Shown piece by piece: positions 1,839-22,408 of a DNA stretch of 23,010 nucleotides. How positions within the stretch are numbered: the first letter of the stretch is position 1; every line of letters starts with the position of its first letter. The DNA lies in IMG/VR virus record IMGVR_UViG_3300009149_000300, positions 1-23,010 of that record; one strand, given 5' to 3'. The translations under genes and the position numbers were made by a program. The notes below the pieces were generated by a model that saw nothing but the letters and a program-made list of their open reading frames with translations, did no database searches and had not been told where the DNA came from. The DNA is from a virus.

Positions 1839-3158
1839 ATCGAATATGTTAAATTGGCGACCTTAAAAAGACACCAGACCGAATGGCAAAAGAAACTCAA
1901 AACAAAAAGCTTACTGAGGCTAAAAAAAATAAAAAGGATGAGTTCTACACACAGCTTTCAGATATAGAAAGAGAATTAAAACACTACAAAGCGCATTTTA
2001 AAGATAAGGTTGTTTACTGTAACTGTGACGACCCACGAGTGAGTAATTTCTTTCATTACTTCTCTTACAATTTTGAAAAGTTAGGCCTGAAAAAGCTTAT
2101 TGCGACTTGCTATAAAAATCAGGACATGGACTTGTTCAGCCAAAACAAGTCAGAGCAAGCCATCTACTTAGAATATGATGGAGACAAGAATGGAAACTTT
2201 GTACCTGACCCAGATGAAATAGGCATAAAGCCATTAAATGGTGACGGAGATTTCAGGAGCAATGAAAGTATTGAGTTATTAAAGCAAGCCGACATTGTAG
2301 TAACCAATCCACCATTCTCACTTTTCAGAGAATATGTCGCTCAACTTATTGACTTCGATAAGAAGTTTGTGATTGTTGGACATCAGAATGCCACGAAAAA
2401 CACCGAAATATTTCCGTTAATAAAGGATAACAAACTTTGGCTGGGATATGGTTTTAAAGGAGGCGCTGGCCATTTTATAAATAAGCATTACCAAGATTAC
2501 GCTACCGCTGGTGATCACAAAGAAGGCATGATTAGAGTTTCGGGTGTGGTTTGGCTTACCAACTTAGAAATCTCCAAACGGCATGAAGATTTAATACTGT
2601 ATAAAGCCTACAATGTAGAAGATTATCCAAAGTATGATAACTATGACGCGATTAACGTGGATAAAGTCGCAGACATTCCAGTTGATTTTAAAGGTCACAT
2701 AGGTGTTCCAATTACATTTTTAAACAAATACAATCCTGAGCAATTTGAAATAATAGGACTTGGACAAGGGAATTTGTACCGGGAATTTGCTCCAAATGGT
2801 CTAAGCCAAAAATTTGTTGACGATTATTATAAGGCTGGAAACACAGGTTTAATTAAAGCAGACCACCCAATTCTAGGTTATTACGACAATAATGGCAAGG
2901 CTACGATACCATTCATGAGAATCATTATTAAGAACAAAAGATTATGAACATAGAGCTTAAAGAAATTACGGTTCGTGAACTCACCAATCAATATGTGGAT
3001 AATGAAGAAAACGGGGTCATCGGCTTTGGTGGTAAGCTGGATATTCGTCCTCCGTTTCAACGAGAGTTTATTTACGGAGAAAAAGAACGAAACGCGGTAA
3101 TTGATACCTTAAAAAAAGACTTTCCATTAAATGTAATGTACTGGGCTGTTCGGGACGT
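1837..3158 (+). other. Inserted host-like segment (methyltransferase plus DUF262 fragment)
   Basis: This stretch separates the two parts of the HNH/NUMOD3 gene. Hand counts of single 60-base lines inside it gave about 40 to 47% GC (lines 1981, 2461 and 3001), against about 30% for a line in the nearby polymerase gene (4081). It carries a complete EcoRI-type adenine methyltransferase and the first 70 or so residues of a DUF262 protein, cut off in mid-domain. No transposase, inverted repeat or target duplication is visible at either end, so it looks like illegitimate or nuclease-associated recombination. The edges are estimates to within about ten bases. Confidence 0.7.
1883..2947 (+). CDS. EcoRI-type adenine-specific DNA methyltransferase
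   Basis: This 354-residue protein belongs to the EcoRI methylase family, which transfers methyl groups to adenine N6 in a restriction site. Seen in the sequence: an N-terminal KKDEFYTQLSDIERELKHY stretch (residues 17-35), DKVVYCNCDDPRVSNFF (41-57), and the catalytic motif TNPPFSLFREY (141-151, NPPF type), followed by KKFVIVGHQNATKNTEIFPL. The length is normal for the family and the gene looks intact. The next gene, a truncated DUF262, overlaps it by ATGA, a pairing that suggests capture from a host restriction-modification locus. Its GC content is higher than that of its neighbours, indicating recent transfer. In the phage it could protect DNA from a cognate host nuclease. The recognition site cannot be read from the sequence. 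Confidence 0.9.
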   Translation: MAKETQNKKLTEAKKNKKDEFYTQLSDIERELKHYKAHFKDKVVYCNCDDPRVSNFFHYFSYNFEKLGLKKLIATCYKNQDMDLFSQNKSEQAIYLEYDGDKNGNFVPDPDEIGIKPLNGDGDFRSNESIELLKQADIVVTNPPFSLFREYVAQLIDFDKKFVIVGHQNATKNTEIFPLIKDNKLWLGYGFKGGAGHFINKHYQDYATAGDHKEGMIRVSGVVWLTNLEISKRHEDLILYKAYNVEDYPKYDNYDAINVDKVADIPVDFKGHIGVPITFLNKYNPEQFEIIGLGQGNLYREFAPNGLSQKFVDDYYKAGNTGLIKADHPILGYYDNNGKATIPFMRIIIKNKRL

Positions 3159-3171
3159 TCATGATGACTAA
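2944..3171 (+). pseudogene. Truncated DUF262 (GmrSD-like) protein, N-terminal fragment
   Basis: The 75-residue frame starts by overlapping the methyltransferase stop (ATGA) and contains GKLDIRPPFQREFIYGEKER and then [12 protein letters not shown], the typical start of DUF262 domains such as those of GmrSD-type restriction enzymes. The family normally continues with the DGQQR nucleotide-binding motif and several hundred more residues; here the sequence leaves the family right after YWAVRD and stops at DVHDD. All catalytic parts are missing, so it is a fragment. The break coincides with the right edge of the insertion, where HNH-gene sequence resumes in another frame. Confidence 0.8.
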
Positions 3172-3643
3172 TATGGCTAACACAAAAAACAAAAGACAAA
3201 AGAGGCAGTATAATATTTGTTCAGCTGAATACGAAAGGTTAAAGGAATCTTATAGTAAAGTGTTAAGTAAGAATAAGAAAGGTACAATACCGTGGAATAA
3301 AGGTATTCCAAGAACTGAAGAAACTAAACGGAAGATGATTGAAGCACTGAAAGGTAGAGTACCATCTTTTAAAGGTAAGAAACATTCAGAAGAAGCTAAA
3401 CGAAAGATAAGTGATAAAAACAAAGGTAATAAATACAGAGTAGGTATGACTCACTCTGAAGAATCTAAAAAGAAAATGAGTGAAGCAGCTAAAGGAAGAG
3501 TTTCACCAAATAAGGGTAAATCGTTATCTGAAGACACAAAACGAAAATTAAGCATAGCTGCTAAAAACAGAAAGAGGAGACCACACACTGAAGAAACAAA
3601 ACAGAAGATGAGAGCAACTGCACTTAAAAATAAAAATAAATGA
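3161..3643 (+). pseudogene. Homing endonuclease C-terminal part with NUMOD3 repeats
   Basis: This 160-residue frame is the continuation of the HNH gene at 1623. It opens with [13 protein letters not shown] and [16 protein letters not shown], the usual linker after an HNH core, and then has about four to five NUMOD3 repeats of the form (H/R)(S/T)EE(T/S/A)K(R/K)KM or KI, with KGR/KGK turns between them. NUMOD3 repeats bind DNA in homing endonucleases. It has no catalytic HNH residues of its own. Its stop overlaps the polymerase start (ATGA at 3640). The ATG at 3161 may not be a true start, since the frame became a separate unit only because of the insertion; it could still be translated as a DNA-binding fragment. 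Confidence 0.75.
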
Positions 3644-4761
3644 TAGACCAAGTCGAACTAGAAAAGGTAAAAAGAGAAGCTGATCAGTATTTCGCCTTCG
3701 AGCAAGCAATTAAGTTAATGCTCAATTCAATTTACGGTGCTTTTGGTAATGAGTATTTTTATTTTTTTAATGTAGATATTGCCGAAACTATTACACTACA
3801 GGGAAAAGATGCCATACTTTATACTGAAGAATTGGTTAATAAGTACTTTAGAGAATTTTGGCATAATGATAAAGCTACTCATGCTAAAATGGGCATAGAG
3901 GTTACAGAAAAAGTTAAAGAACCCATAGGTATTTATATTGATACCGATTCAATATACATGAAGTTTGATGAAGTAATTAAAAATACAACATGGGCTGGTT
4001 CTGAAAAAGATTTTATACTTAAATTATATGAAATCAGATTAAAGGAATTTATTGAAAAAATTATGCAAAAATATGCAGACACTAATAATGCAGAAAATTA
4101 CCTTTCTTTTGAATTAGAGTCTGTAGCAAAAAATGCGATCTGGTTAGCTAAGAAAAAATATATGCAAAATATTGTTTGGAAAGATCCGGATTTGCATTAT
4201 GATGATTTAAGTAAAATTAGTGCTAAAGGTTTTGAAATTATTCAATCTTCAGCACCTTCGTTTGCTAGGGAAAAATTAAAGCACTTAATTACTTATATTT
4301 TTTCTGTTGATGACGTAAATATGCAAGATTTTGCTAATTTACTAAAAGATATTAAGCGTGAATTTAAATTAGCAAACATTGACCATATTGCTGAATCTAA
4401 AAAAGTTAATAATTACCAGAAATATATTGTTAATGATAGAGAATCATTTCAAGTAGGATCCAAATGTCCAATAGGAGTAAGATCTGCAGGATACCATAAT
4501 TACTTGCTGAATAATTCACCACATCGTAAAAAATATAAACCTGTAGGAAACGGCGAAAAATTAAAAATGTATTACACAGTTGATAAAGCATGTGATACAT
4601 TTGCATATTCTCCAGGTGAATATCCATATGAATTTGCGCCATCTATTGATTATGATGCTCAATTTGAAAAGGTAATATTAGATCCAATTAATAGAGTGTT
4701 AAAGGTAATGGGATTTAAGCAATTCAATCGTAGTTTAATTTATACAAACGGTCTCTTTTGA
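3640..4761 (+). CDS. 43: Family B DNA polymerase, C-terminal part (split gp43)
   Basis: The 373-residue protein holds the C-terminal palm and thumb of a T4 gp43-type polymerase. Motif B is [13 protein letters not shown] (residues 25-37; K25, N29, Y32, G33) and motif C is YIDTDSIY (99-106, with catalytic D101 and D103). A later AKKKY matches the KxY motif that contacts the primer-template. The exonuclease domain and motif A (DxxSLYP) are absent, and nothing like them lies upstream in this window. The polymerase is therefore split just before motif B, and the N-terminal partner must be encoded elsewhere. The homing endonuclease immediately upstream suggests how the split arose. The halves would need to associate for activity. 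The C-terminus ends NGLF, perhaps a clamp-binding tail. Confidence 0.9.
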
Positions 4762-4782
4762 TAAATAGATAAAGATAATCAA

Positions 4783-5280
4783 GTGAGATTTTTATTTATT
4801 TTATTTTTTCCTTTATTTTCATTTGGTCAATGTATACTTGATGATCAATTAACAGTTAACCCAGTTTCTGCTACATATCAACCTGGTGATGTTCTTACTT
4901 TTACTTATACGATTAATAATTATCAAGGACTTTCTACTAATTGGTTACACGGTATTGCAGTAAACTTAGGACCCGGTTGGGTCGGTGTTAATCCACTAGG
5001 TAATCCAACTAATAATACAGGTACTGGATTGTGGCTATGGGTTAATACGGTGACATCATCAGCTAATGGAAACATTGTTAACAACCCTGGTTGGTTTTAT
5101 GACACAGCTTCCGGTGGTTTTTTAGACGGGGATCCTGGTAATAATTGGGGTGATGGTATGATTGGACCATGGACATTTCAATTTCAAGCCACTGTTGGTG
5201 ATTGTCCACCTGGTAATAATGGAGATATACTTAATTTAATTGTTGAAAATTATGCAGATGGTGTGATATATAAAGTATAA
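4783..5280 (+). CDS. Secreted protein of flavobacterial type
   Basis: The predicted start is GTG at 4783, because it gives a clean signal peptide, MRFLFILFFPLFSFG, with likely cleavage before Q16. The mature part (about 150 residues) is rich in Asn, Gly and Trp and has the pattern DVLTFTYTINNYQG, NWLHGIAVNLGPGWV, GLWLWVNT, NNWGDGMIGPWTFQFQATVG. This resembles beta-rich domains I associate with large secreted or surface proteins of Flavobacteriia, but I cannot name the family. It has no sorting domain of its own. It is the first gene of a compact cluster with capsid-targeted proteins and two more secreted proteins. A late-type TATATAAA box lies inside its 3' end for the next gene. It presumably acts outside the cytoplasm of the infected cell; its role is unknown. 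Confidence 0.65.
   Translation: MRFLFILFFPLFSFGQCILDDQLTVNPVSATYQPGDVLTFTYTINNYQGLSTNWLHGIAVNLGPGWVGVNPLGNPTNNTGTGLWLWVNTVTSSANGNIVNNPGWFYDTASGGFLDGDPGNNWGDGMIGPWTFQFQATVGDCPPGNNGDILNLIVENYADGVIYKV
5267..5274 (+). promoter_or_regulatory. Late-type promoter box before the capsid-targeted gene
   Basis: GTGATATATAAAG matches the box before the portal gene (GTGATATATAAACC) except in the last bases. It lies 20 bases before the ATG at 5294. Confidence 0.45.
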
Positions 5281-5293
5281 AAATATATTTAAA

Positions 5294-5575
5294 ATGAAAC
5301 TACTACCTACTAATTTCGAAGAATTTCTTAACGAAGGTGCATCTAAAAAGAAAGTAGATGCTAATGTAATAGCTGATAGAATGATGGACGCCAATTTAGG
5401 AGGCCATTATTTATTACGTAGATATGCTGAGGAAGTACGAGCACTTAAACGAGTATCTGAATATGATGTAGATCAAATCGTACCAGATCATCTACCAGGC
5501 CATCTTATTTACGGACTTTTTAAAGAATCAGTTAATGAAGCAAATGATATAGATCGTAACACGAAAGGTTTCTAA
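5294..5575 (+). CDS. Putative capsid-targeted internal protein, 5' part of a frameshifted gene
   Basis: The N-terminus MKLLPTNFEEFLNEGASKKK resembles the capsid-targeting peptide of T4 internal proteins (MKTYQEFIAEA), with a predicted gp21-type cut after FLNE. The next 60 or so residues form a small helical domain (VIADRMMDANLGGHYLLRRY, then EVRALKRVSEYDVDQIVPDH). The frame ends LFKESVNEANDIDRNTKGF. Immediately after, in another frame, the sequence continues SKDELFKESLNEAKEIELGG up to 5774. Removing one base near 5567-5568 would join the two. The joined product, about 160 residues, would have two nearly identical cleavage sites (LFKESVNEA and LFKESLNEA) between its two domains. The frameshift may be real, programmed or a sequencing error. 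Confidence 0.6.
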   Translation: MKLLPTNFEEFLNEGASKKKVDANVIADRMMDANLGGHYLLRRYAEEVRALKRVSEYDVDQIVPDHLPGHLIYGLFKESVNEANDIDRNTKGF

Positions 5576-5576
5576 A

Positions 5577-5774
5577 GATGAACTTTTTAAAGAATCACTT
5601 AATGAAGCTAAAGAAATAGAATTAGGTGGTATTAAAGCAGAACGATTTGAAAAATCAGGTATTGGTGGATGGAAACTTACTGTAGGTTCGGCCTTAGGAA
5701 GAGGTACACAGGTAATTATGATACCGGATTCCACTGGGACAAAATTATTTCAGTTTTTACACAAAAATACATAA
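5577..5774 (+). pseudogene. Out-of-frame continuation of the capsid-targeted protein
   Basis: This frame has no good start codon of its own; the first ATG lies about 40 codons in. It reads DELFKESLNEAKEIELGGIK, then a compact domain (RFEKSGIGGWKLTVGSALG, GTQVIMIPDSTG, LFQFLHKNT) ending at TAA 5772-5774. The beginning repeats the end of the previous frame (LFKESVNEA), so the two belong together as one protein with a tandem cleavage site. The next gene starts 4 bases after the stop. It is called broken because a one-base shift is needed to express it. Confidence 0.6.
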
Positions 5775-5777
5775 ACT

Positions 5778-6077
5778 ATGATTACAACATTCAATAGTTT
5801 TTTGAACGAAGGCAAATCATCATGGGGTGGTATGCAATTTACTGTAACTTCTTTTGTAGATAGAGATGGTATGTATATTTCATTTATTCCAAACAGTAAA
5901 ACGTTAGATCTAACAAGTACTGAAAGTTTAGCAGAACGAGTAAAAGATAAATTAGATACAAAGATGCCACTATTAGCATCAGCACTAGAATATAAATCTG
6001 ATCATCATGCAGCAGGTTTAATATTTAAATTAAATCAATATGATTTAGCTGATGCTGTTATAAAAGGTCTTAAATGA
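5778..6077 (+). CDS. Putative capsid-targeted internal protein
   Basis: This 99-residue protein starts MITTFNSFLNEGKSSWGG, again a short helix ending in L-N-E before Gly, the pattern of a gp21-type protease site after a capsid-targeting peptide. The mature part, about 88 residues, reads MQFTVTSFVDRDGMYISFIP, then two helices around ESLAERVKDKLDTKM and a strand, a small alpha-beta domain I cannot assign. Its stop overlaps the next start (ATGA at 6074), so it is co-translated with a secreted protein. A weak TACATAAAC box precedes the ATG. I infer packaging in the head and delivery with the DNA; activity unknown. Confidence 0.6.
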   Translation: MITTFNSFLNEGKSSWGGMQFTVTSFVDRDGMYISFIPNSKTLDLTSTESLAERVKDKLDTKMPLLASALEYKSDHHAAGLIFKLNQYDLADAVIKGLK

Positions 6078-6415
6078 AAAAAGTATTAATTACAATATCA
6101 TTCTTTTTATCGGCACACACCGTATTTTCCCAAGCCTTACCATGTCCTCATTTTATATGTGAACAAGACCCTAACTTAACAACATACACCGTAACTAATA
6201 CATTCGGATCTACTTATCAATGGGTTGTTGCTGGTGGTAATATAGCATTAGGTCAAGGTACTAATTCTATTGAAGTAGATTGGTCCGGTACATTACCCGG
6301 TAATTATCAAGTTGAAGTGACAGAAACTGATATTAATGGATGTATTGGAACGCCTGTTTTATGCGATATTACAATTAACCCAACTCCTGTAACTGGAGTA
6401 ATAACACACGATTAA
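6074..6415 (+). CDS. Secreted PKD-like domain protein
   Basis: The protein (113 residues) starts with a signal peptide, MKKVLITISFFLSAHTVFS, likely cut before Q20. The rest is one PKD-like beta-sandwich domain of the kind repeated in Bacteroidota surface proteins: STYQWVVAGGNIALGQGTNS, then IEVDWSGTLPGNYQVEVTET, NGCIGTPVLCDITINPTP. Domains of this type normally occur in chains within very long proteins; here a single one stands alone. The start overlaps the preceding capsid-targeted gene (ATGA) and its stop overlaps the next gene (TAATG), so the pair with the T9SS-domain protein at 6415 is almost surely co-translated. Four cysteines could form disulfides outside the cytoplasm. It may bind the partner protein or a cell-surface ligand; this is inference. 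Confidence 0.75.
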   Translation: MKKVLITISFFLSAHTVFSQALPCPHFICEQDPNLTTYTVTNTFGSTYQWVVAGGNIALGQGTNSIEVDWSGTLPGNYQVEVTETDINGCIGTPVLCDITINPTPVTGVITHD

Positions 6416-6978
6416 TGTTTAAGTTTTTATTGGCACTATTAGTGCTACCCATTTTTACATTTGGACAATATTTTCATCAAATTCCTGATTGCTATGGACA
6501 GAGAACGCCAGTACGCTATAGTATTGAAACTAAACCAGAACTAAATTATACATTTGAAGTAGTTGGAGGGCAAATACTAAATCAAAATGCAGGAGACCTA
6601 CTTGTTAATTGGCAAACTGACGGCCAAATAATTATTACGGCTAGCAATAACTTAGGATGCTCTACTCAATCTAATTTAATGATGCAATTGGTACCATGCG
6701 ATCAAACTTTAATATGGGTACCTAATTCATTTACACCTAATCGAGATGGTGTTAATGATAGATTTACACCAAAAGGAGTAAACCTTAAATATTACGAAAT
6801 GACTATTTATAACCGATGGGGACATCGATTATATTTTACACGAAATATAATGAAAGGTTGGAATGGTTATTACCATCATAGATTATGTCAAGCTGGTATT
6901 TATACATATAAAATTATGTACCAAGATCACCGTAACTATTATCACACTATAACAGGTAAGGTTGTCATTTTAAGGTAA
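6415..6978 (+). CDS. Secreted protein with T9SS type B sorting domain (gliding motility-type C-terminal domain)
   Basis: This 187-residue protein has three parts. A signal peptide (MFKFLLALLVLPIFTFG) is cut before Q18. A PKD-like domain follows (about 40-95: YTFEVVGGQILNQNAGDLLV, NWQTDGQIIITASN). The C-terminal domain (about 100-187) matches the gliding motility-associated, T9SS type B sorting domain: WVPNSFTPNRDGVNDRF (101-117), IYNRWGHRLYF (131-141), KGWNGYY, CQAGIYTYKIMYQD, and a final GKVVILR. In Bacteroidota this domain sends proteins across the outer membrane through the type IX secretion system. The whole protein looks complete. It overlaps the PKD gene before it (TAATG). A phage gene of this kind suggests a product placed on or released from the infected cell, for example to block receptors; the role is inference. 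Confidence 0.88.
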   Translation: MFKFLLALLVLPIFTFGQYFHQIPDCYGQRTPVRYSIETKPELNYTFEVVGGQILNQNAGDLLVNWQTDGQIIITASNNLGCSTQSNLMMQLVPCDQTLIWVPNSFTPNRDGVNDRFTPKGVNLKYYEMTIYNRWGHRLYFTRNIMKGWNGYYHHRLCQAGIYTYKIMYQDHRNYYHTITGKVVILR

Positions 6979-7021: not shown

Positions 7022-7978
7022 ATGGCAAAAAAAGAATTTTCTTTCGCTGATCTTAATAAAGAGATGAGCAAAATCTCAGAGTACGGTGATACTTTAGATA
7101 AGTCTAGTATATCGTCGATAGATCACTACATACCTACTGGTAATTTTATGTTAAACGCATGCTTGACTGGAAGCTTATTTGGTGGATACCCAAATAATAG
7201 AGCAGTTGCATTGGCAGGACCTACTGGTACTGGTAAAACTTATCTTATTCTTAATGCAATTAAACAAGCACAGAAGCTAGGTTATAGTATTGTATTTTAT
7301 GATTCTGAAAATGCCGTAGATAAATCATTAGTTGAAAAATTTGGAATTGATCCTAAAACATTTAGGTATGAACCATGTAATACAGTACAAGAATATAGAA
7401 CATCAGTTACTACTTTAGTTGATACTCTTCTTGATCAAAAAAAGAAAGGCGTCGAATTACCTAAAATTATGATTGTGCTTGATTCTGCTGGAAACTTGGC
7501 TACTCAAAAAGAAATTGATGATGCAAGAACCGGTTCTGACAAATCAGATATGACAAGAGCCAAACTCCTTAAGTCCACATTTCGTATTTTAATGACCAAA
7601 CTAGGAATCTGTAAAATTCCATTATTATTTACAAATCATACTTACCAAACACAAGATCTATTTTCAAGACAAGTTGGTGGTGGCGGTTGTTTAACACCAG
7701 GTTCTTTAGTTTTAATGTCAGACAATTCATATAAAGAAATTGAACAAATTAAGGAAGGTGATTATGTCAAAACTTTAGTAGGTGACAAAGAAATAGAAGC
7801 AACTTGGGAATTTGAAAAACCAACATATAAAATAGAATTTGAAGATAGATCTATTTTAGGATGTTCAGAAGATCATCGATTTTTTATAGGCGAATCTAAT
7901 TCCAATCCATTAAATGATGATAATTGGGTATATGCCAGAGATTTAATAAATGGAGACAGTGTATCGATATATAATTAG
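7022..7978 (+). CDS. uvsX: UvsX recombinase N-terminal part fused to N-intein (split intein)
   Basis: Residues 1-222 are the N-terminal part of a T4 UvsX/RecA-type recombinase: Walker A GPTGTGKT (66-73), Walker B IMIVLDSAG (149-157), and FTNHTYQTQDLFSRQVGGGG leading up to the join. At Cys223 an intein begins: CLTPGSLVLMSDNSYKEIEQ (block A), a later GCSEDHRFF (block B, His), then it ends in YN and TAG after 96 residues. The C-terminal intein part and the rest of UvsX are encoded at 8974-9633. Protein trans-splicing would join VGGGG to TGPEYAAS, which restores the conserved GG-TGP stretch of UvsX and gives a 401-residue recombinase (T4 UvsX has 391). No hedgehog-type or LAGLIDADG domain is present in this half. 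Confidence 0.93.
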   Translation: MAKKEFSFADLNKEMSKISEYGDTLDKSSISSIDHYIPTGNFMLNACLTGSLFGGYPNNRAVALAGPTGTGKTYLILNAIKQAQKLGYSIVFYDSENAVDKSLVEKFGIDPKTFRYEPCNTVQEYRTSVTTLVDTLLDQKKKGVELPKIMIVLDSAGNLATQKEIDDARTGSDKSDMTRAKLLKSTFRILMTKLGICKIPLLFTNHTYQTQDLFSRQVGGGGCLTPGSLVLMSDNSYKEIEQIKEGDYVKTLVGDKEIEATWEFEKPTYKIEFEDRSILGCSEDHRFFIGESNSNPLNDDNWVYARDLINGDSVSIYN

Positions 7979-7999
7979 TGGCGGCGGGTAGCCACCGCC
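7978..7999 (+). other. GC-rich hairpin between N-intein stop and nuclease gene
   Basis: A 22-base GC-rich island with overlapping inverted repeats: GTGGC (7978-7982) with GCCAC (7991-7995), or GGCGG (7983-7987) with CCGCC (7995-7999). It begins on the last base of the N-intein stop codon. No U-run follows, so it is not a classical terminator. It could limit translation or transcription of the nuclease gene that starts 22 bases later. Confidence 0.45.
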
Positions 8000-8021
8000 T
8001 AGAATTAAAAATACACTAATT

Positions 8022-9026
8022 ATGAAACCTTCTTTTATTCCATATATAAATGCATCTGAAAATTATGAATCATTCAAAGAATTGATATTAAAACATTTTC
8101 CAAATTTTAATATAGATAATGAAATTTATTTATATGAATTATTTGATTCAATTTCTAATGTCAAAATAAAGGGAAAGGTTTCATTTATTAATGAATGTTC
8201 GATGTTTTTAAAAGAAAGGCGTAATGGTAAATCTGTCTCTAATATATCTAAAGATTATTGGATATCTATGGGATGGGATGATGCTTCTGCAATACAAAAA
8301 GTATCAGATCTACAGAGATCAAGATCTGTTTTAACAGTTGATTATTGGATAAAAAAAGGATTTTCTAAAGCAATTGCAACAATAAAGATTAAACAATATC
8401 AATCTAATAATTCAAAAAAAAGATATGCTAAATATTCAAGTGAAGAAATTTCTGAACAATCTGTGTGGTCTAAATCGTATTGGATTAATAAAGGATATTC
8501 TGAAGATGATGCACAGTATGAAGTCGATAAAAGAAATTACGGAAAGAGAGAATTTTGGACATCTAATGAAGAATATGAATATATTAGAAAATTAATAGGT
8601 AAAAAAACATCTAAGTTCATTAAAGAAAATCCGGAAAAATATAAATCTTTCTTCGGGTCTATTTCTAAAGAGGAAATTATTTTTTTTAACGAATTAATTA
8701 AACATAATGAAGAAATTAAACATAAGCAATTCATTATAAACATAAAAAAATCTAAAGATTTAGACCAAGGTATAATTAAATATGATGGATATTTAAAAAC
8801 AAATAAAGGTATTGTCTTGATAGAATATGATGGTTTATATTGGCATAATCAATCATATGATGAAATAAAGGATTCAGTAGCATTAGATATTAGAAATGAC
8901 ATAATTGGAATAATTAGAGTTTCGTGTGAAAAATTTAAAACTAACCAACAAAAATGTATAAAATATATAGAAAATGGAATTGAAAAAATTAAAAATAAAA
9001 AGTGTAACAGAATTAAAATCTACTAA
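8022..9026 (+). CDS. Free-standing Vsr-like (EDxHD-type) homing endonuclease
   Basis: This 334-residue protein lies between the two halves of the split uvsX. The N-terminal two thirds contain three copies of a YWI-x2-G(W/F/Y)-x4-A motif (about residues 79-90, 108-119, 153-164), probably DNA-binding modules. The C-terminal third looks like a Vsr-like nuclease: KYDGYL (253-258), IEYDGLYWHN (267-276; E268, D270, H275), then a KDSVALDIRNDIIGIIRVS stretch typical of the Vsr fold. The arrangement split intein / Vsr-like nuclease / split intein is the 'fractured gene' layout described from marine metagenomes. The enzyme presumably cuts intein-free uvsX and spreads the element. Its 3' end overlaps the start of the C-intein gene by 53 bases in another frame. 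Confidence 0.85.
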   Translation: MKPSFIPYINASENYESFKELILKHFPNFNIDNEIYLYELFDSISNVKIKGKVSFINECSMFLKERRNGKSVSNISKDYWISMGWDDASAIQKVSDLQRSRSVLTVDYWIKKGFSKAIATIKIKQYQSNNSKKRYAKYSSEEISEQSVWSKSYWINKGYSEDDAQYEVDKRNYGKREFWTSNEEYEYIRKLIGKKTSKFIKENPEKYKSFFGSISKEEIIFFNELIKHNEEIKHKQFIINIKKSKDLDQGIIKYDGYLKTNKGIVLIEYDGLYWHNQSYDEIKDSVALDIRNDIIGIIRVSCEKFKTNQQKCIKYIENGIEKIKNKKCNRIKIY

Positions 9027-9633
9027 GGTTCATGATTTAACTGTTGCTGATGCTCAACATTATATCACTGATAACGGTGTAATAAATCATAATACAGGAC
9101 CAGAATATGCAGCTTCGATTATCCTATTTTTAGCTAAGGCAAAATTAAAAGAAGGTGGTGATGGTAAAGAGCAAACAGGTATCGTAGTTACTGCTAAACC
9201 AAATAAAAATAGATTTGCTAAACCAAGACCTATTAAATTTCATATAAGCTTTAATAAAGGAATGAATCCATATGTAGGATTAGAAGAATTTATTGATTGG
9301 GATACTTGTGGTATTGAAAGAGGCCGATTCTTAGATCAAAAAAAGTATGATAAACTAAGTGATAGCGATAAATCTGAATGTAGACAGCACTGCTATACAG
9401 AAAATGATAAAGAAATAACTTTATACTTTCAACCTTCATCAACTGCACGTAAATTATGTGTAGCCCACTTAAATGATGTGGTAGATTTAAATCAGTTATT
9501 TACACCTCATGTTATTACTAGAGATGTATTAGAAAAATTAGAACCTACAATTAGTGCTGCTTATCAATATAGTGCAGAAGAAGCTAACACTGAAAATTTA
9601 ATGGAAGTATTTGACGATGCTGAAGAAGATTGA
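8974..9633 (+). CDS. uvsX: C-intein fused to UvsX recombinase C-terminal part
   Basis: The first 40 residues are the C-terminal intein part: MELKKLKIKSVTELKSTKVH, then DLTVADAQHYITDNGVINHN, a typical block F/G ending in His39-Asn40. Thr41 is the +1 nucleophile, followed by the C-terminal part of UvsX, 179 residues (TGPEYAASIILFLAKAKLKE and onward). The C-terminus is acidic (EVFDDAEED), as in T4 UvsX. After trans-splicing with the 7022 product this gives complete UvsX. The ATG at 8974 is chosen because it gives a C-intein of the expected size with a basic N-terminus; it lies inside the end of the nuclease gene. The final 23 bases overlap the next gene. Confidence 0.92.
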   Translation: MELKKLKIKSVTELKSTKVHDLTVADAQHYITDNGVINHNTGPEYAASIILFLAKAKLKEGGDGKEQTGIVVTAKPNKNRFAKPRPIKFHISFNKGMNPYVGLEEFIDWDTCGIERGRFLDQKKYDKLSDSDKSECRQHCYTENDKEITLYFQPSSTARKLCVAHLNDVVDLNQLFTPHVITRDVLEKLEPTISAAYQYSAEEANTENLMEVFDDAEED

Positions 9634-14611: not shown

Positions 14612-15541
14612 ATGTCTGCATACAACCAAGAATTTAACCGGGATAACATAGTCCTTAGATATATTACAGTAGCTACATTGGCTGAACTCCGTAATAAAGT
14701 TTATTACTATAATCAAACTGATGAAAATACTTCAGTAAAAATTGATATTCCTTTTTACTATTCTATTACCGGTAACGAGCGATTATTATTGGATGTATTT
14801 AAATTTGGAGCAGAAGAGAATGGTGAGGCTATAGATGACTATGAAGTAGTACCACGCGGAATGTTACAAATGACAGCTGGCAGTATTGATTCTGGTAGTA
14901 TGACTAATAAATTTGTAAGATCCGAATTTGTAAGAGAATTTGAAGGGCAATTAAAAACATATTCATTAGAAACTTCATTTTTACCAGTTAACTTAAGTTT
15001 TGATTGTAGAGTAATATGTAGTAATAATACTGAAATGCTTAAAGCGACAGAATCAGTAATCAGTAAATTATATAAAACTACTCATTTTCAAGTAGATTTA
15101 GGAATGATGAGAGTACAAGCTTCGCTAGAAGTTCCTGAAGATTATGGCCAAAATAGATTATTTGAGTTTTCATTGAATGATAAAAAAGAATTTGAAGTTA
15201 CATTTCCGATTGAAGTTAAATCGTTTATGCCAGTTTTTGAAGGAGGTATTTTACTTTCGGAAATTGTGGAAATGACAAAAGATACAGCAGACAACCCAAA
15301 TCGAGATGGCATTGGTATGTTCCGAAATGGTGAAATAAGATTTGGTGGTGTAATACAACAGGCTAATTACACAGTAGATCATATGTCTAATGCACCTAGT
15401 GACGCTGCCTTTAGTAATTTAACAACTCCACCAGCTCCAGATCAGGATCCATTTTTACAAGATAATATAACCACAGCCCCAGAACCACCTGAAAATACTA
15501 ATAGTGAAGAATATAGAAATAAATCTGATAATGTTAAATAA
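14612..15541 (+). CDS. Tail sheath stabiliser / tail terminator (T4 gp15-like), tentative
   Basis: This 309-residue protein starts MSAYNQEFNRDNIVLRYITV. The order of features resembles T4 gp15, the sheath-stabilising protein at the head-proximal end of the tail: a short N-terminal helix, VKIDIPFYYSITGNERLLLD (like the VPITYASKEHF region), a VVPRGMLQM stretch (like ILPRINLHL), then LPVNLSFDCRVICSNNTEML (like PIKMIYELSIFTRYEDDMFQ), a second half with VTFPIEVKSFMP, and a Pro-rich tail (PPAPDQDPF, PEPPENTN). T4 gp15 is 272 residues and also ends Pro-rich. The match is of pattern rather than identity, hence the modest confidence; another neck or tail-terminator protein is possible. It follows gp46 directly and precedes late structural genes. 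Confidence 0.5.
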   Translation: MSAYNQEFNRDNIVLRYITVATLAELRNKVYYYNQTDENTSVKIDIPFYYSITGNERLLLDVFKFGAEENGEAIDDYEVVPRGMLQMTAGSIDSGSMTNKFVRSEFVREFEGQLKTYSLETSFLPVNLSFDCRVICSNNTEMLKATESVISKLYKTTHFQVDLGMMRVQASLEVPEDYGQNRLFEFSLNDKKEFEVTFPIEVKSFMPVFEGGILLSEIVEMTKDTADNPNRDGIGMFRNGEIRFGGVIQQANYTVDHMSNAPSDAAFSNLTTPPAPDQDPFLQDNITTAPEPPENTNSEEYRNKSDNVK

Positions 15542-17470: not shown

Positions 17471-17836
17471 ATGGCAAGAAAAAGAAATTATTTAAATAAT
17501 AGAGATCTTTTAGAACAAATAATATTATCTAAAGAACAAGATGAGCTTACTCCAAAGGCTCTAGAGTTTCTAATGTTATTAGCAGACAAATGTTCTACAA
17601 AATTATCATATGCAAATCCTGACGATAGGCGAGACTGTATAGCAGTAGCTTATATGGATTTATATAAATATTGGAGAAACTTTAATCCTGAAAAAAGTAC
17701 CAACGCATTTGCATACTTTACTGAAATATGTAAACGTGGTTTTGCAAAGGGGTGGAATAAATTACATCCTAAAAAATATGGTAATACTGTTTCAATTCAC
17801 GGGTCAACAGACTCAGATGGTATTTACTCTCTATAA
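17471..17836 (+). CDS. 55: Late-transcription sigma factor (T4 gp55-like)
   Basis: This 121-residue protein aligns by eye with T4 gp55 over its conserved core: NYLNNRDLLEQIILSKEQDE (T4 NYVNNKELLQAIIDWK), then ALEFLMLLADKCSTKL, DDRRDCIAVAYMDLYKYWRN, FNPEKSTNAFAYFTEICKRG (T4 [20 protein letters not shown]). gp55 is a small sigma-family protein that directs host RNA polymerase to TATAAATA promoters and is stimulated by the gp45 clamp. It is shorter than T4 gp55 (185), lacking most of the C-terminal region; it ends SDGIYSL, possibly a short clamp-binding tail. It is followed two bases later by the gp4-like gene. Targets are probably the TATAAA-type boxes in this window. Confidence 0.85.
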   Translation: MARKRNYLNNRDLLEQIILSKEQDELTPKALEFLMLLADKCSTKLSYANPDDRRDCIAVAYMDLYKYWRNFNPEKSTNAFAYFTEICKRGFAKGWNKLHPKKYGNTVSIHGSTDSDGIYSL

Positions 17837-18917: not shown

Positions 18918-20567
18918 ATGGCTGGATTTACAAATAGAAAAGGACCTTTATCAGAAGGAAACCCAGTACGAAAGATTTTAAAAGATCTTTCTAATCTTGG
19001 TATGGCTTACGACGATATGATTATCAGAAATTCGCGAGCCGTAGGATTTACAGAAAACCAATATGGTTATACTATGAATCCAATGGGTAGTGATGCCGAT
19101 GACATTTATTCGCCATTTGCGGCAATGTCGTTAACTGACACTACTATGAAGAAAAGTATAGCTTTCTTCGATCGTAATTATGCAGAAAAAGTAGAAAAAT
19201 ATAGACTTTTTGCAGTACAAGATGAAATAGAAGAAATTCTTGATGTGTTATGTGATGAAGCTATTGTATTTGATGAGAGTAATTATTGTGCATATGGACA
19301 TTTTAATACTCAAATTTCAGACTCAGTAGAAGATGAAATAGGTGATGCATATAATAATATTTATAATTATTTTGGTTTTAATGATGCTTTAAGTATTTGG
19401 AACTATTTTAGAAAATGGTTAGTTGATGGTTATATAGCATTTGAAATTGTTTATAACGATAAGCAAACTGAAATAATAGGATTTAAAGAATTGGATCCAC
19501 AATCACTAGTACATGGAGTTGACACCGATACCGGTAAAGTACAGTGGGTTCAGTATAAAGGACAGGGGGTAAAAGAACGTAAACTTTGGGATTCTCAAAT
19601 TATTTATATTTCTTATTCACAGGTTAATTCACCACAAAGAACTTCTTATGTTGAACGACTTATTAGATCGTTTAATATGCTTAGAATTATGGAGCATACT
19701 AGAATTATTTGGGCTGTAACTAATTCTAGTTTTAAAACTAAGTTTGTTATACCAGTTGGAGGTAAATCTAAGACACGGGCAAAGCAATCATTGGCACAAC
19801 TAATGAACAGTTATAGAGAAGTTGTAGATTTTGATTTTGACAGTGGTGAACTCACAACAAATGGCAAACCAATGATGCCATTTAATAAAGAATATTAGCT
19901 TCCTTCTAAAGATGGAGAAACTCCAGAAATTGAAAATGTAGGTGGCGACGGTCCGGACTTAGGAGATACTGAATCTTTAAAATATTTTGCAGATAGTTTA
20001 AAATTAGCATCTAAAATTCCTTTTTCCAGATTTGATAGAGATGGTGGTTCTGTTTGGGATCTAGAAGCTAGTGGTATGATGAGAGATGAAATTAAGTTTT
20101 CTAAATTTATTAGTAGATTAAGATCTATCTTTCAAGAAATATTAGTAAAGCCTCTTTATCTTCAAATGTGTCTTAACCACCCTGAATTAAAAAATGATGT
20201 ATCATTTAAAGCAGGTCTTGGATTAAAATGGGTTAAAGATAATGTATTTGAAGAACTTAAGGAAATGGAGCTTATGAATAAGCGTGTTGACTTTATAGGT
20301 AATATGAAAACTCAATTAAGTACAATGGGTCCTGATATGGAAGAAATACCATATTTTAATTTAGGATTCCTAATTAAACGATACGGTGGGTTTACACAGG
20401 ATGATATTAAAGCCAATGCTCGGGCCACAACCAGAGAAGATTTAGAAAAGGAGGGATATACGGATGATGATATAGAAAAGATTTTATTAGGTGCTAATAA
20501 AAAGGATTTTAAACCAGAAGAACCCGTTACTGATGATCCAACGGCAGATATGGATATGGACATCTAA
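18918..20567 (+). CDS. 20: Portal protein (T4 gp20-like) with in-frame amber codon
   Basis: Two frames in the same register, 18918-19898 and 19899-20567, together encode a 549-residue portal (T4 gp20 is 524). The first part has the usual portal start and FAVQDEIEEILDVLCDEAIV, FRKWLVDGYIAFEIVY and NMLRIMEHTRIIWAVTNSSF stretches. The second has LPSKDGETPEIENVGGDGPD, LKYFADSLKLASKIPFSRFD, and ends in an acidic tail. They are separated only by TAG at 19896-19898, at FNKEY-amber-LPSKDG. T4 gp20 has W at this place (FWLPRREG), so a TGG to TAG change is the simplest cause. The downstream part has no good start before 20076, inside conserved sequence. The product would need readthrough, suppression or correction of the base to be full length. 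The portal is essential, so this site matters. Confidence 0.85.
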
Positions 20568-20612: not shown

Positions 20613-22292
20613 ATGGCAGATAAAAACTTGCTAATATTAGAAAGATCAACAGCAAATCTATCTACATCAGAAGCAGATGATGGTAGTATTGTACTAGAAG
20701 GTGTATTTACACAGTTCGGCGTAAAGAATAAAAACAATCGTATTTACGAAGAAGCAGAAGTATTACCTCATATTAAAGAATTACAGGAAAAAGTAAAAAC
20801 TAAGAAATTATTAGGAGAATTAGATCATCCTAAAGATTTTGATATTAGTTTATCGAATGTAAGTCATGTTATTGAAGATCTTTCATATGATTCTGCTAAC
20901 AAGCAAGTAAAGGGTCGTATTAAATTACTTAATACATCTAAGGGTAAAGAAGCCCAAGCTTTAATTAAAGATGGTATTCCTTTACATATATCATCTAGAG
21001 CAGCTGGTACTGTAGGCGAAGATAACAAAGTAAAAATTAAAAAGTTTTTTACTTATGATTTAGTAGCTGATCCAGGATTTGAAAATGCCGAACTTGGTAG
21101 AGTTAATGAATCTTTTGGATTCGATCAAGACGATAGTCTTTTTATTTATGAAATTGATAAACCGATATATAAAGTACAAGAAAACAAATCAGAAAAAATG
21201 GAGCAATCTTACGTTACTAACGAGGACTTTAACAAGTATACAGAGTACCTCAAAAATGAAATTAATTCTTTAAAAGAGTCAAGCACATCTGCCGATAATG
21301 AAAAAATGGAAAAGCTAGTTAAATATGCTGAAACCATTGCTGAAAAGGTAAACGGTGTAACTGAATATGTTGACTATCTTGCTGAGAATGTTGATAAGGG
21401 TATTACTTATTCTAATTATCTTGCTGAAAATATGAATAGCATTAAAAATTATGCTGGTTATTTAGCAGAACAATTAGATAGCGGTATTCGTTATAGCGAG
21501 CATATTGCTGAAAAAACTGATCAATCTATTGAATTTTCTAATTACCTAGCTGAAAGCCTTGATAAAGGAATTAAGTATAGTGAATATGTTGGTGAAAAAG
21601 TTGATCAAAATATTGCTTACTCTGAATATCTTAGAGAAAATCTTGATAAAGGAATTAAGTATAGCGAATATATTGCAGAGCAAGTAAACACTGAATATGA
21701 TAAAGCTCTTATGGAAAAGACTGAAACGGTTGAATCAACTGAATCAATTAATGAAGAAGCTAAAACTGCATCTTATCAATCTACTTTAACTGAAAGTATT
21801 GATAATCTTATTAAAAATGCAGAAGCTAAATCTACATCAGATATGATCTTTATGAATTTCCTTACCGAAAGTAAGAAAAGAGAATTCGGTGCACTTACAA
21901 CTGAAATGAAAGATACAGTTGTAACTAAAATGAATGAAGGTCATGTAATGAGTAATCTAGATGCTAATCGCATTTGGGAATCTTGTTTTATAGTAGAAGA
22001 AGCTGCAGCTGATTTTATTAAAGATATGCCTGCAACTTACAAAGAAAAATGGAACGGTTTAAGCGAAGCTAGAAAAAATCAAATTGTAGCAGAATCTAAA
22101 TTTTATCCATTAACCAATGCATATAGTATTAACAACTTCTGGTCTACACGAGATCTTAGAGAGACTCAAGTTGTAATGGAAAAATTAAATGAAGGAGTAA
22201 CACCTGCAGTACCAACTCATAATCCATATGCGGTTGATGAAACCAGAAAGGCAGAAATTATCAATAAACTTAAATTTAACCTTAACAGATAA
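20613..22292 (+). CDS. 21: Prohead protease fused to scaffold (T4 gp21-gp22-like)
   Basis: This 559-residue protein joins two T4 functions. Residues 1-190 are a gp21-type prohead protease: GVFTQFGVKNKNNRIYEEAE (30-49), LLGELDHPKDFD (66-77, likely catalytic His72), VKGRIKLLNTSKG (99-111), HISSRAAGTV (125-134, likely catalytic Ser127 or Ser128) and YDLVADPGFENAEL (148-161). T4 gp21 is 212 residues. From about 195 the rest is helical; residues 255-367 are about eight 14-residue repeats of the form YLAENxDxGIxYSE, followed by a further helical region with FLTES, INEEA, LSEAR and LNEG motifs. This resembles the core scaffold gp22, normally a separate protein. The repeats carry (L/I)-A-E sites that the protease could cut. 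It has a late-type box and follows the portal. Confidence 0.88.
   Translation: MADKNLLILERSTANLSTSEADDGSIVLEGVFTQFGVKNKNNRIYEEAEVLPHIKELQEKVKTKKLLGELDHPKDFDISLSNVSHVIEDLSYDSANKQVKGRIKLLNTSKGKEAQALIKDGIPLHISSRAAGTVGEDNKVKIKKFFTYDLVADPGFENAELGRVNESFGFDQDDSLFIYEIDKPIYKVQENKSEKMEQSYVTNEDFNKYTEYLKNEINSLKESSTSADNEKMEKLVKYAETIAEKVNGVTEYVDYLAENVDKGITYSNYLAENMNSIKNYAGYLAEQLDSGIRYSEHIAEKTDQSIEFSNYLAESLDKGIKYSEYVGEKVDQNIAYSEYLRENLDKGIKYSEYIAEQVNTEYDKALMEKTETVESTESINEEAKTASYQSTLTESIDNLIKNAEAKSTSDMIFMNFLTESKKREFGALTTEMKDTVVTKMNEGHVMSNLDANRIWESCFIVEEAAADFIKDMPATYKEKWNGLSEARKNQIVAESKFYPLTNAYSINNFWSTRDLRETQVVMEKLNEGVTPAVPTHNPYAVDETRKAEIINKLKFNLNR
21375..21713 (+). repeat. Tandem 14-residue coding repeats in the scaffold
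   Basis: About eight 42-base units encode YLAENVDKGITYSN, YLAENMNSIKNYAG, YLAEQLDSGIRYSE, HIAEKTDQSIEFSN, YLAESLDKGIKYSE, YVGEKVDQNIAYSE, YLRENLDKGIKYSE and YIAEQVN. The units are related but not identical, so they are old. Most have a (L/I)-A-E motif at the same place. Confidence 0.85.
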
Positions 22293-22357: not shown

Positions 22358-22408
22358 AATTATAAACCAATGAAACACATTAAATTATTTGAACAGTTTA
22401 TTAATGAA
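22316..22408 (+). repeat. 93-base direct repeat, copy 1
   Basis: Identical to 22871-22963 by eye. It runs from AAGTATCGATGTACTTCTCA through the ATTATAAACCAATG leader to the end of the MKHIKLFEQFINE coding part, so it joins a promoter-like leader with a capsid-targeting peptide. Confidence 0.92.
22361..22368 (+). promoter_or_regulatory. TATAAACC box before the first MKHIKLFEQF gene
   Basis: TTATAAACCAATG: a late-type box 9 bases before the start codon, which would give a very short or absent leader. It is within the 93-base repeat. Confidence 0.4.

Follow-up and report, generated by a model that had tools for sequence, protein, structure and literature searches.

A tag-matched three-gene cassette with a type IX sorting domain in T4-like phages of Bacteroidota: a candidate phage-encoded surface complex

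Introduction

Phage-encoded cargo of the type IX secretion system (T9SS) is already known from Bacteroidota phages (PMC7468147, PMC6949934); in the literature searched, it comprises only lone proteins, each bearing a sorting domain of its own. Here, we analyse a cassette of three genes from a T4-like phage (IMG/VR record IMGVR_UViG_3300009149_000300; the complete virus record of 23,010 bases is referred to as the window). The cassette comprises an adhesin-like protein (gene1), a PKD-like protein (gene2) and a mini carrier (gene3) with a T9SS type B C-terminal domain (CTD), and the C-termini of gene1 and gene2 share a short tag. No report of such a tag-linked split cargo was found in the literature searched.

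A cryoconite phage (cryophage) encodes T9SS cargo with type A sorting domains and, as for the cassette, is thought to use the host machine (PMC7468147). In contrast to the cassette, its domains are found on two enzymes (endoglucanase, GH39) and a PA14 protein, every one of which carries a separate CTD, and no tag-linked trio is described. T9SS sorting domains also occur in crAss-like phages with BACON domains (PMC6949934), but there BACON repeats lie near head genes, and neither a short type B carrier nor C-terminal tags are described.

On the host side, the SprB/SprF and PG1035/PorP pairs (PMC9143113) resemble gene3, i.e., anchoring of a type B CTD protein by a PorP-like barrel is expected. 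There, the host encodes the barrel and a single cargo chain, whereas the phage has no barrel and splits its cargo into several chains. The type B CTD is also shared with GhpA of Aureispira (PDB 9flp, E-value 1.2e-5), which differs as a host protein of 5,898 residues. Type V/chaperone-usher pili provide a working likeness, i.e., exported Ig-like subunits joined by a terminal peptide (donor-strand linkage). The cassette differs in the missing lipobox, its three or four subunits and its CTD anchor; strand exchange is predicted at most, and profile searches gave no match of the cassette proteins to a fimbrial family or an usher. A shared purpose is possible for T5 Llp, which makes the phage's own receptor unusable, lysed fragments included, but which is a single periplasmic lipoprotein with early expression (PMC9586334).

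Results

The carrier and its exported partners

Gene3 (6415..6978, + strand) combines a signal peptide, a PKD-like domain and a T9SS type B sorting domain (6718..6957, +; positions 3-79 of the 85 of TIGR04131) and is the putative carrier and anchor of the cassette. A preliminary description of the region had read a complete type B CTD in this open reading frame (ORF), and the profile search passes the curated cut-offs of both models (TIGR04131: 50.7 bits, cut-off 35; Pfam CHU_C: 55.3 bits, cut-off 27). The PKD-like part reaches only 13.8 bits in Pfam, yet aligns to the PKD_6 domain of gene2 (6074..6415, +), which was correctly taken for a lone PKD-like domain following a signal peptide (30.9 bits, cut-off 25). 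Since MAFFT stacks the N-terminal PKD-like domain of gene3 on that of gene2, we consider the two domains related. A fold search with the gene3 model returned generic Ig-like matches, and searching the PDB with the gene2 profile gave weak matches to phage decoration proteins. The proposed translational coupling of both genes agrees with the overlap TAATG at 6415; a further coupling, ATGA, is found at 6074.

Signal peptides are found on all three ORFs as described before, i.e., MRFLFILFFPLFSFG/Q at 4783, MKKVLITISFFLSAHTVFS/Q at 6074 and MFKFLLALLVLPIFTFG/Q at 6415, and are conserved in relatives; they were called by eye and with a crude hydropathy score rather than a trained predictor. By the same score, the 29 aligned gene3 homologues share a hydrophobic N-terminus that usually ends in x-Q. 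None of the signal peptides contains a lipobox. Profile searches found no match of gene1 or gene2 to a type A or B CTD family. That is, only gene3 bears a sorting signal, and the other two proteins must therefore be held by something else.

Conservation of the cassette

The cassette occupies two genome positions within one group of T4-like phages. Between the DNA polymerase and RecA genes it is found in the window and in contigs L002, L040 and L050, while the position before the neck/sheath genes holds the trio in L015 and L038 and, as far as shown, genes 2 and 3 in L042, L043 and L047. In L015, the cassette directly follows tail-fibre-like genes. The syntenic homologues of L002 are 73% (gene3), 77% (gene2) and 78-81% (gene1) identical to those of the window. 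As synonymous divergence between window and L002 is saturated, the ratio of nonsynonymous to synonymous substitution rates (dN/dS) was computed from L015 and its relatives. The values of 0.06-0.19 for genes 2 and 3 indicate strong purifying selection in these relatives and, along with the syntenic L002 homologues, rule out chance as the source of the module.

Beyond this group, a scan of viral contigs for the sorting domain resulted in 439 confirmed stretches, 80 of which were fetched. The respective proteins are mainly either long and host-like or short carriers of about 183-204 residues. Directly upstream of most short carriers (exceptions: L110, L111), one or two exported proteins are encoded, often overlapping. 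Homologues of gene2 and gene3 with an exchangeable gene1 thus occur in many other Bacteroidota phage contigs, and the suggested survey of related genomes found the trio both in close relatives and in distant phage contigs. Of the larger contigs with a cassette, five encode a large phage terminase, L015 encodes tail sheath and neck genes, and endolysin and tail-fibre genes lie beside the cassette of L094. Several other cassette contigs are fragments, for which the phage nature is that given by IMG/VR.

The large CHU_C proteins of two huge phages of about 635 and 642 kb mostly show a different, host-like architecture. In these genomes (L003 and L004, i.e., LR756502 and LR745206; 642 and about 635 kb), the type B CTD is encoded three and four times, in several cases as part of proteins with 700-1,670 residues. 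A gene1-like domain (33% identity) is additionally present in LR756502.

Some cassettes encode extra tagged exported proteins 3' of the carrier gene (L095 6293-6886, L086 6228-7673, L055 9055-10449), so that the number of exchangeable, outward "tip" proteins appears to vary between cassettes. A further exported protein, untagged and about 155-161 residues long, with the motif IVPIIENEDL or a similar one, is found upstream of or inside the cassettes of L074, L088, L055 and L094.

Matched C-terminal tags

Genes 1 and 2 end in I-x-H-N/D, and other cassettes show I-Y/F-T-N/D, H-Y or S-D-(Q)-N instead. In the window, the gene2 tag is I-T-H-D (6401..6412, +), which is conserved in every close homologue of the alignment. 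The viral loci comprise 1,248 non-redundant ORFs, of which 36 have the ending I.H[ND] and 16 the ending [IVL][YF]T[ND]; without exception, these 52 belong to cassettes. Since the patterns were first seen in the same cassettes, this count measures specificity rather than discovery; chance as the source of the tag is nevertheless rejected by it.

Within each cassette, the tag subtypes of gene1 and gene2 are equal (22/22 cassettes), although the respective permutation value takes no account of relatedness. This objection is answered by two natural swaps. The gene1 proteins of L055 and L090 are 67% identical and end in SQINHN and QIYTN, respectively, while those of L074 and L085 are 84% identical and end in AIYTN and LYSDQN; each end matches that of its own gene2. 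The simplest reading of these sequences is that the tag is determined by a partner within the cassette.

Gene1 and its truncation in the window

Gene1 (4783..5280, +) encodes a signal peptide followed by a cohesin/adhesin-like beta domain. The preliminary description placed all three ORFs correctly; damage to gene1, like the tags, the conservation of the cassette and the restriction of the sorting signal to gene3, lay beyond its reach. Alignments show the ORF at 4783 to be truncated, i.e., the C-terminal 36 residues including the tag are lost. In L002, gene1 extends for 36 further codons (ETGSW...SPILHN) that are missing from the window. Comparison of both sequences places the junction of a 107-nt (nucleotide) deletion at 5259..5275 (+), which brings GGTG next to the former TGA context and changes the reading frame. 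Either the phage of the window no longer has its tip, or the deletion is an assembly error.

For the intact gene1 homologue of L015, the AlphaFold2 (AF2) model is all-beta with a predicted local distance difference test (pLDDT) score of 71.9. Its fold search gave weak cohesin, pilin and adhesin matches (template modelling score about 0.4), so "cohesin/adhesin-like" is to be read as a hint only. Without signal peptide and tail, the gene1 proteins fall into five unconnected groups, with no detectable similarity between families and only the tag in common.

Upstream of gene1, relatives encode a conserved multi-pass membrane protein whose end overlaps gene1 (L002 3014-3490, L040 7567-7992, L050 660-1133). 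It is missing from the window.

Docking model

In L051, gene2 and gene3 share one frame and are separated by a TAA and one codon. We thus modelled with AF2 a single chain that joins the 20 C-terminal residues of gene2, the TAA read as a residue, and gene3 with its signal peptide as linker. The mean pLDDT is 81.7. Residues 1-12 and 21-36 stay below 50, in contrast to the tag stretch (residues 13-20, TLSPIQHN), which also forms beta bridges. The model is suggestive of a tag that is ordered beside gene3 between disordered flanks.

Export, anchoring and host homologues

The earlier proposal of a phage module exported via the host T9SS is well supported. Proteins with a type B CTD are held by PorP/SprF-like barrels (PMC9143113). 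While PorP/SprF (PF11751) was found in none of 24 phage records, all seven Bacteroidota host genomes encode it in 2-11 copies, so the phage would have to borrow the barrel of its host. In host genomes, a nearby PorP/SprF-like barrel is usual but not universal for type B cargo.

Among the matches listed for 300 Flavobacteriaceae genomes, the gene2 domain is found only inside frames of at least 312 residues. Likewise, the carrier matches listed for 395 Bacteroidota genomes lie in frames of at least 300 residues, apart from one truncated by a contig start. One gene1 homologue was found in the 395 genomes, i.e., a protein of 412 residues whose end resembles a T9SS type A tail. Scanning genome contigs gave no match for gene1 and only large host proteins for gene2, and the host loci examined contained no tagged ORF. 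As the first pass of the host searches scored few candidates per genome, rare host cassettes may be missed by these counts.

Timing of expression

A late-promoter-like ATAAATA (4761..4767, +) lies 22 nt upstream of gene1 and at 23 nt in L002 and L040; L050 has no exact match. The element also precedes the tail genes at 14612 (11 nt) and 15588 (50 nt), in the window as well as in L002 and L016. With 9 copies against 17 expected, ATAAATA is not enriched in the AT-rich window, such that it is informative only through its spacing to the same genes, which is conserved between genomes. The window further encodes a T4 gp55-like late sigma factor (17471..17836, +; phrog_234, 55.8 bits), which backs late expression. 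Given the conserved spacing, the sigma factor and the tail-fibre or endolysin genes beside cassettes elsewhere, the data favour late expression of the cassette, and the suggestion of "one late cluster" gains support.

Phage identity and further features of the window

The T4-like identity is backed by a prohead protease of family S77 (20613..22292, +; PF03420 56.8 bits, phrog_207), a gp20-like portal, the late sigma factor, a recombinase (RecA/UvsX-like) and replication genes, among them the C-terminal part of a DNA polymerase. The closest cultured relative is Flavobacterium phage immuto (host: Flavobacterium sp. LMO8), with 49.7% identity to the tail sheath of the 153-kb relative L015. Based on this tail sheath, a flavobacterial host of the window phage is likely.

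Interleaved with the secreted module but outside of it are two ORFs with an N-terminal FLNE (5294..5575, +; 5778..6077, +), the second of which is kept in L002 and L040. The motif resembles T4 L-x-E cleavage sites and a prohead protease is encoded, which makes it plausible that both products carry capsid-targeting peptides. The N-termini of both and of the ORF at 22370 follow F-x-x-F-L/I-N-E or similar and thereby resemble the capsid-targeting peptides that the prohead protease cleaves in T4; similar N-termini are also found in the huge phages. An open, start-less stretch follows the first ORF (5576-5774), where L002 has one longer ORF of 299 residues; it is probably a frame break.

The RecA/UvsX-like gene (7022-9633) is interrupted by an apparent split intein, composed of an N-part with Hint motifs (7022-7978), an endonuclease-like ORF (8022-9026) and a C-part with the intein C-end (8974-9633). 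RecA is uninterrupted in L002 (414 residues), while the interruption is also found in L040. The portal (18918-20567) is apparently split into ORFs of 326 and 163 residues with a gap, which suggests a frameshift, an inserted stretch or an error in the sequence. Finally, in the region 1883-2947 and 2944-3643, an EcoRI-type adenine methylase (444.9 bits) adjoins two ORFs, one short and GmrSD_N-like, the other rich in repeats. The latter resembles a homing endonuclease, and the partial DNA polymerase lies downstream.

Discussion

Taken together, we think that the cassette probably encodes a T9SS-exported, tag-linked complex. For the fuller picture, i.e., a late-made phage surface complex of three subunits, exported by the T9SS and docked via tags, we lean towards acceptance. 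Sec would carry all three subunits over the inner membrane, as their signal peptides suggest, and the type B CTD of gene3 would take the carrier through the host T9SS. Given the biology of type B CTDs and the lack of a phage-encoded barrel, a PorP/SprF-like barrel of the host would hold gene3 on the outer membrane. The tags of genes 1 and 2 would dock on the PKD-like domains of gene2 and gene3, consistent with tag co-variation and the AF2 model, such that gene3 would hold gene2 and the exchangeable gene1 would form the outward tip; in the phage of the window this tip may be lost, gene1 being damaged. The complex would coat the dying cell and block the phage's own receptor, sparing the progeny from re-binding infected cells or envelope fragments. 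This coating and receptor masking is a guess by likeness to T5 Llp, and a doubtful one. In more general terms, we see an even chance that the cassette is a split T9SS cargo, i.e., a generic mini-carrier with exchangeable adhesin-like proteins, linked by a cassette-specific tag of about four residues, where proteins without CTD, as members of a complex, pass through the T9SS or are kept outside it at lysis.

Several points weigh against this picture. To our knowledge, passage of partners that lack a CTD through the T9SS is undocumented. The case for docking is suggestive, consisting of the co-variation of tags and of one AF2 model of a single chain, in which confidence at the tag is modest (block mean 59). 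The loss of the gene1 tag, if real rather than an assembly artefact, would show that the window phage can do without the complete trio. Furthermore, the cassette is absent from the cultured phages in INPHARED, and the masking analogy is weakened by the early timing of T5 Llp.

Alternatively, the tag might be a short signal for export or attachment that is read by a host envelope factor, with each protein acting alone. Its extreme C-terminal place, as for T9SS signals, and the signal peptides of the tagged proteins would fit. Such a signal should neither switch in step within cassettes (22/22) nor differ by neighbour among gene1 proteins of 67-84% identity, unless the hosts differ likewise. As AF2 furthermore orders the tag beside gene3 and the host loci examined hold no tagged ORF, we regard a host-read tag as unlikely. 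Timing bears on another option, i.e., classical early superinfection exclusion or interference with gliding or adhesion before progeny assembly. Superinfection exclusion or competition was suggested for the phage with type A cargo (PMC7468147), and T5 Llp inactivates its receptor, also against adsorption to lysed fragments (PMC9586334). The late-promoter-like element and the late gene neighbourhoods argue for a different schedule, and T5 Llp is described as early while the cassette looks late. Early action is thus quite improbable in our view, and late timing fits the masking of lysed envelopes better.

Late expression would also suit virion components, i.e., tail or head decoration. Ig-like domains are common on virions, gene2 weakly resembles decoration proteins, and cassettes are located beside tail-fibre and neck genes (L015) or tail-fibre/lysis genes (L094). 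Still, the conserved signal peptides on all three proteins and the T9SS CTD would take them out of the cytoplasm, where T4-like virions are assembled, which leaves little room for this explanation. The occurrence of the same domains in host proteins and the damaged gene1 of the window would also be expected if the cassette were a mere passenger that was taken up from a host surface protein, brings the phage no advantage and is now in decay. The strong purifying selection seen in relatives as well as matched tags and a three-part layout kept across distant phages speak against this, such that we give this option the least credence.

If the tag-linked complex is real, it would represent a new rule for the surface delivery of Bacteroidota proteins without sorting domain, i.e., a compact carrier combined with C-terminal tags that are matched and can be swapped. 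It would also provide a simple sequence signature to spot such modules in unannotated phage genomes and possibly a display tag for biotechnology. For the phages of environmental Bacteroidota, it would be a lead on late changes of the envelope; that is, the module points to a new way in which viruses may remodel the surface of a Bacteroidota cell before it bursts.

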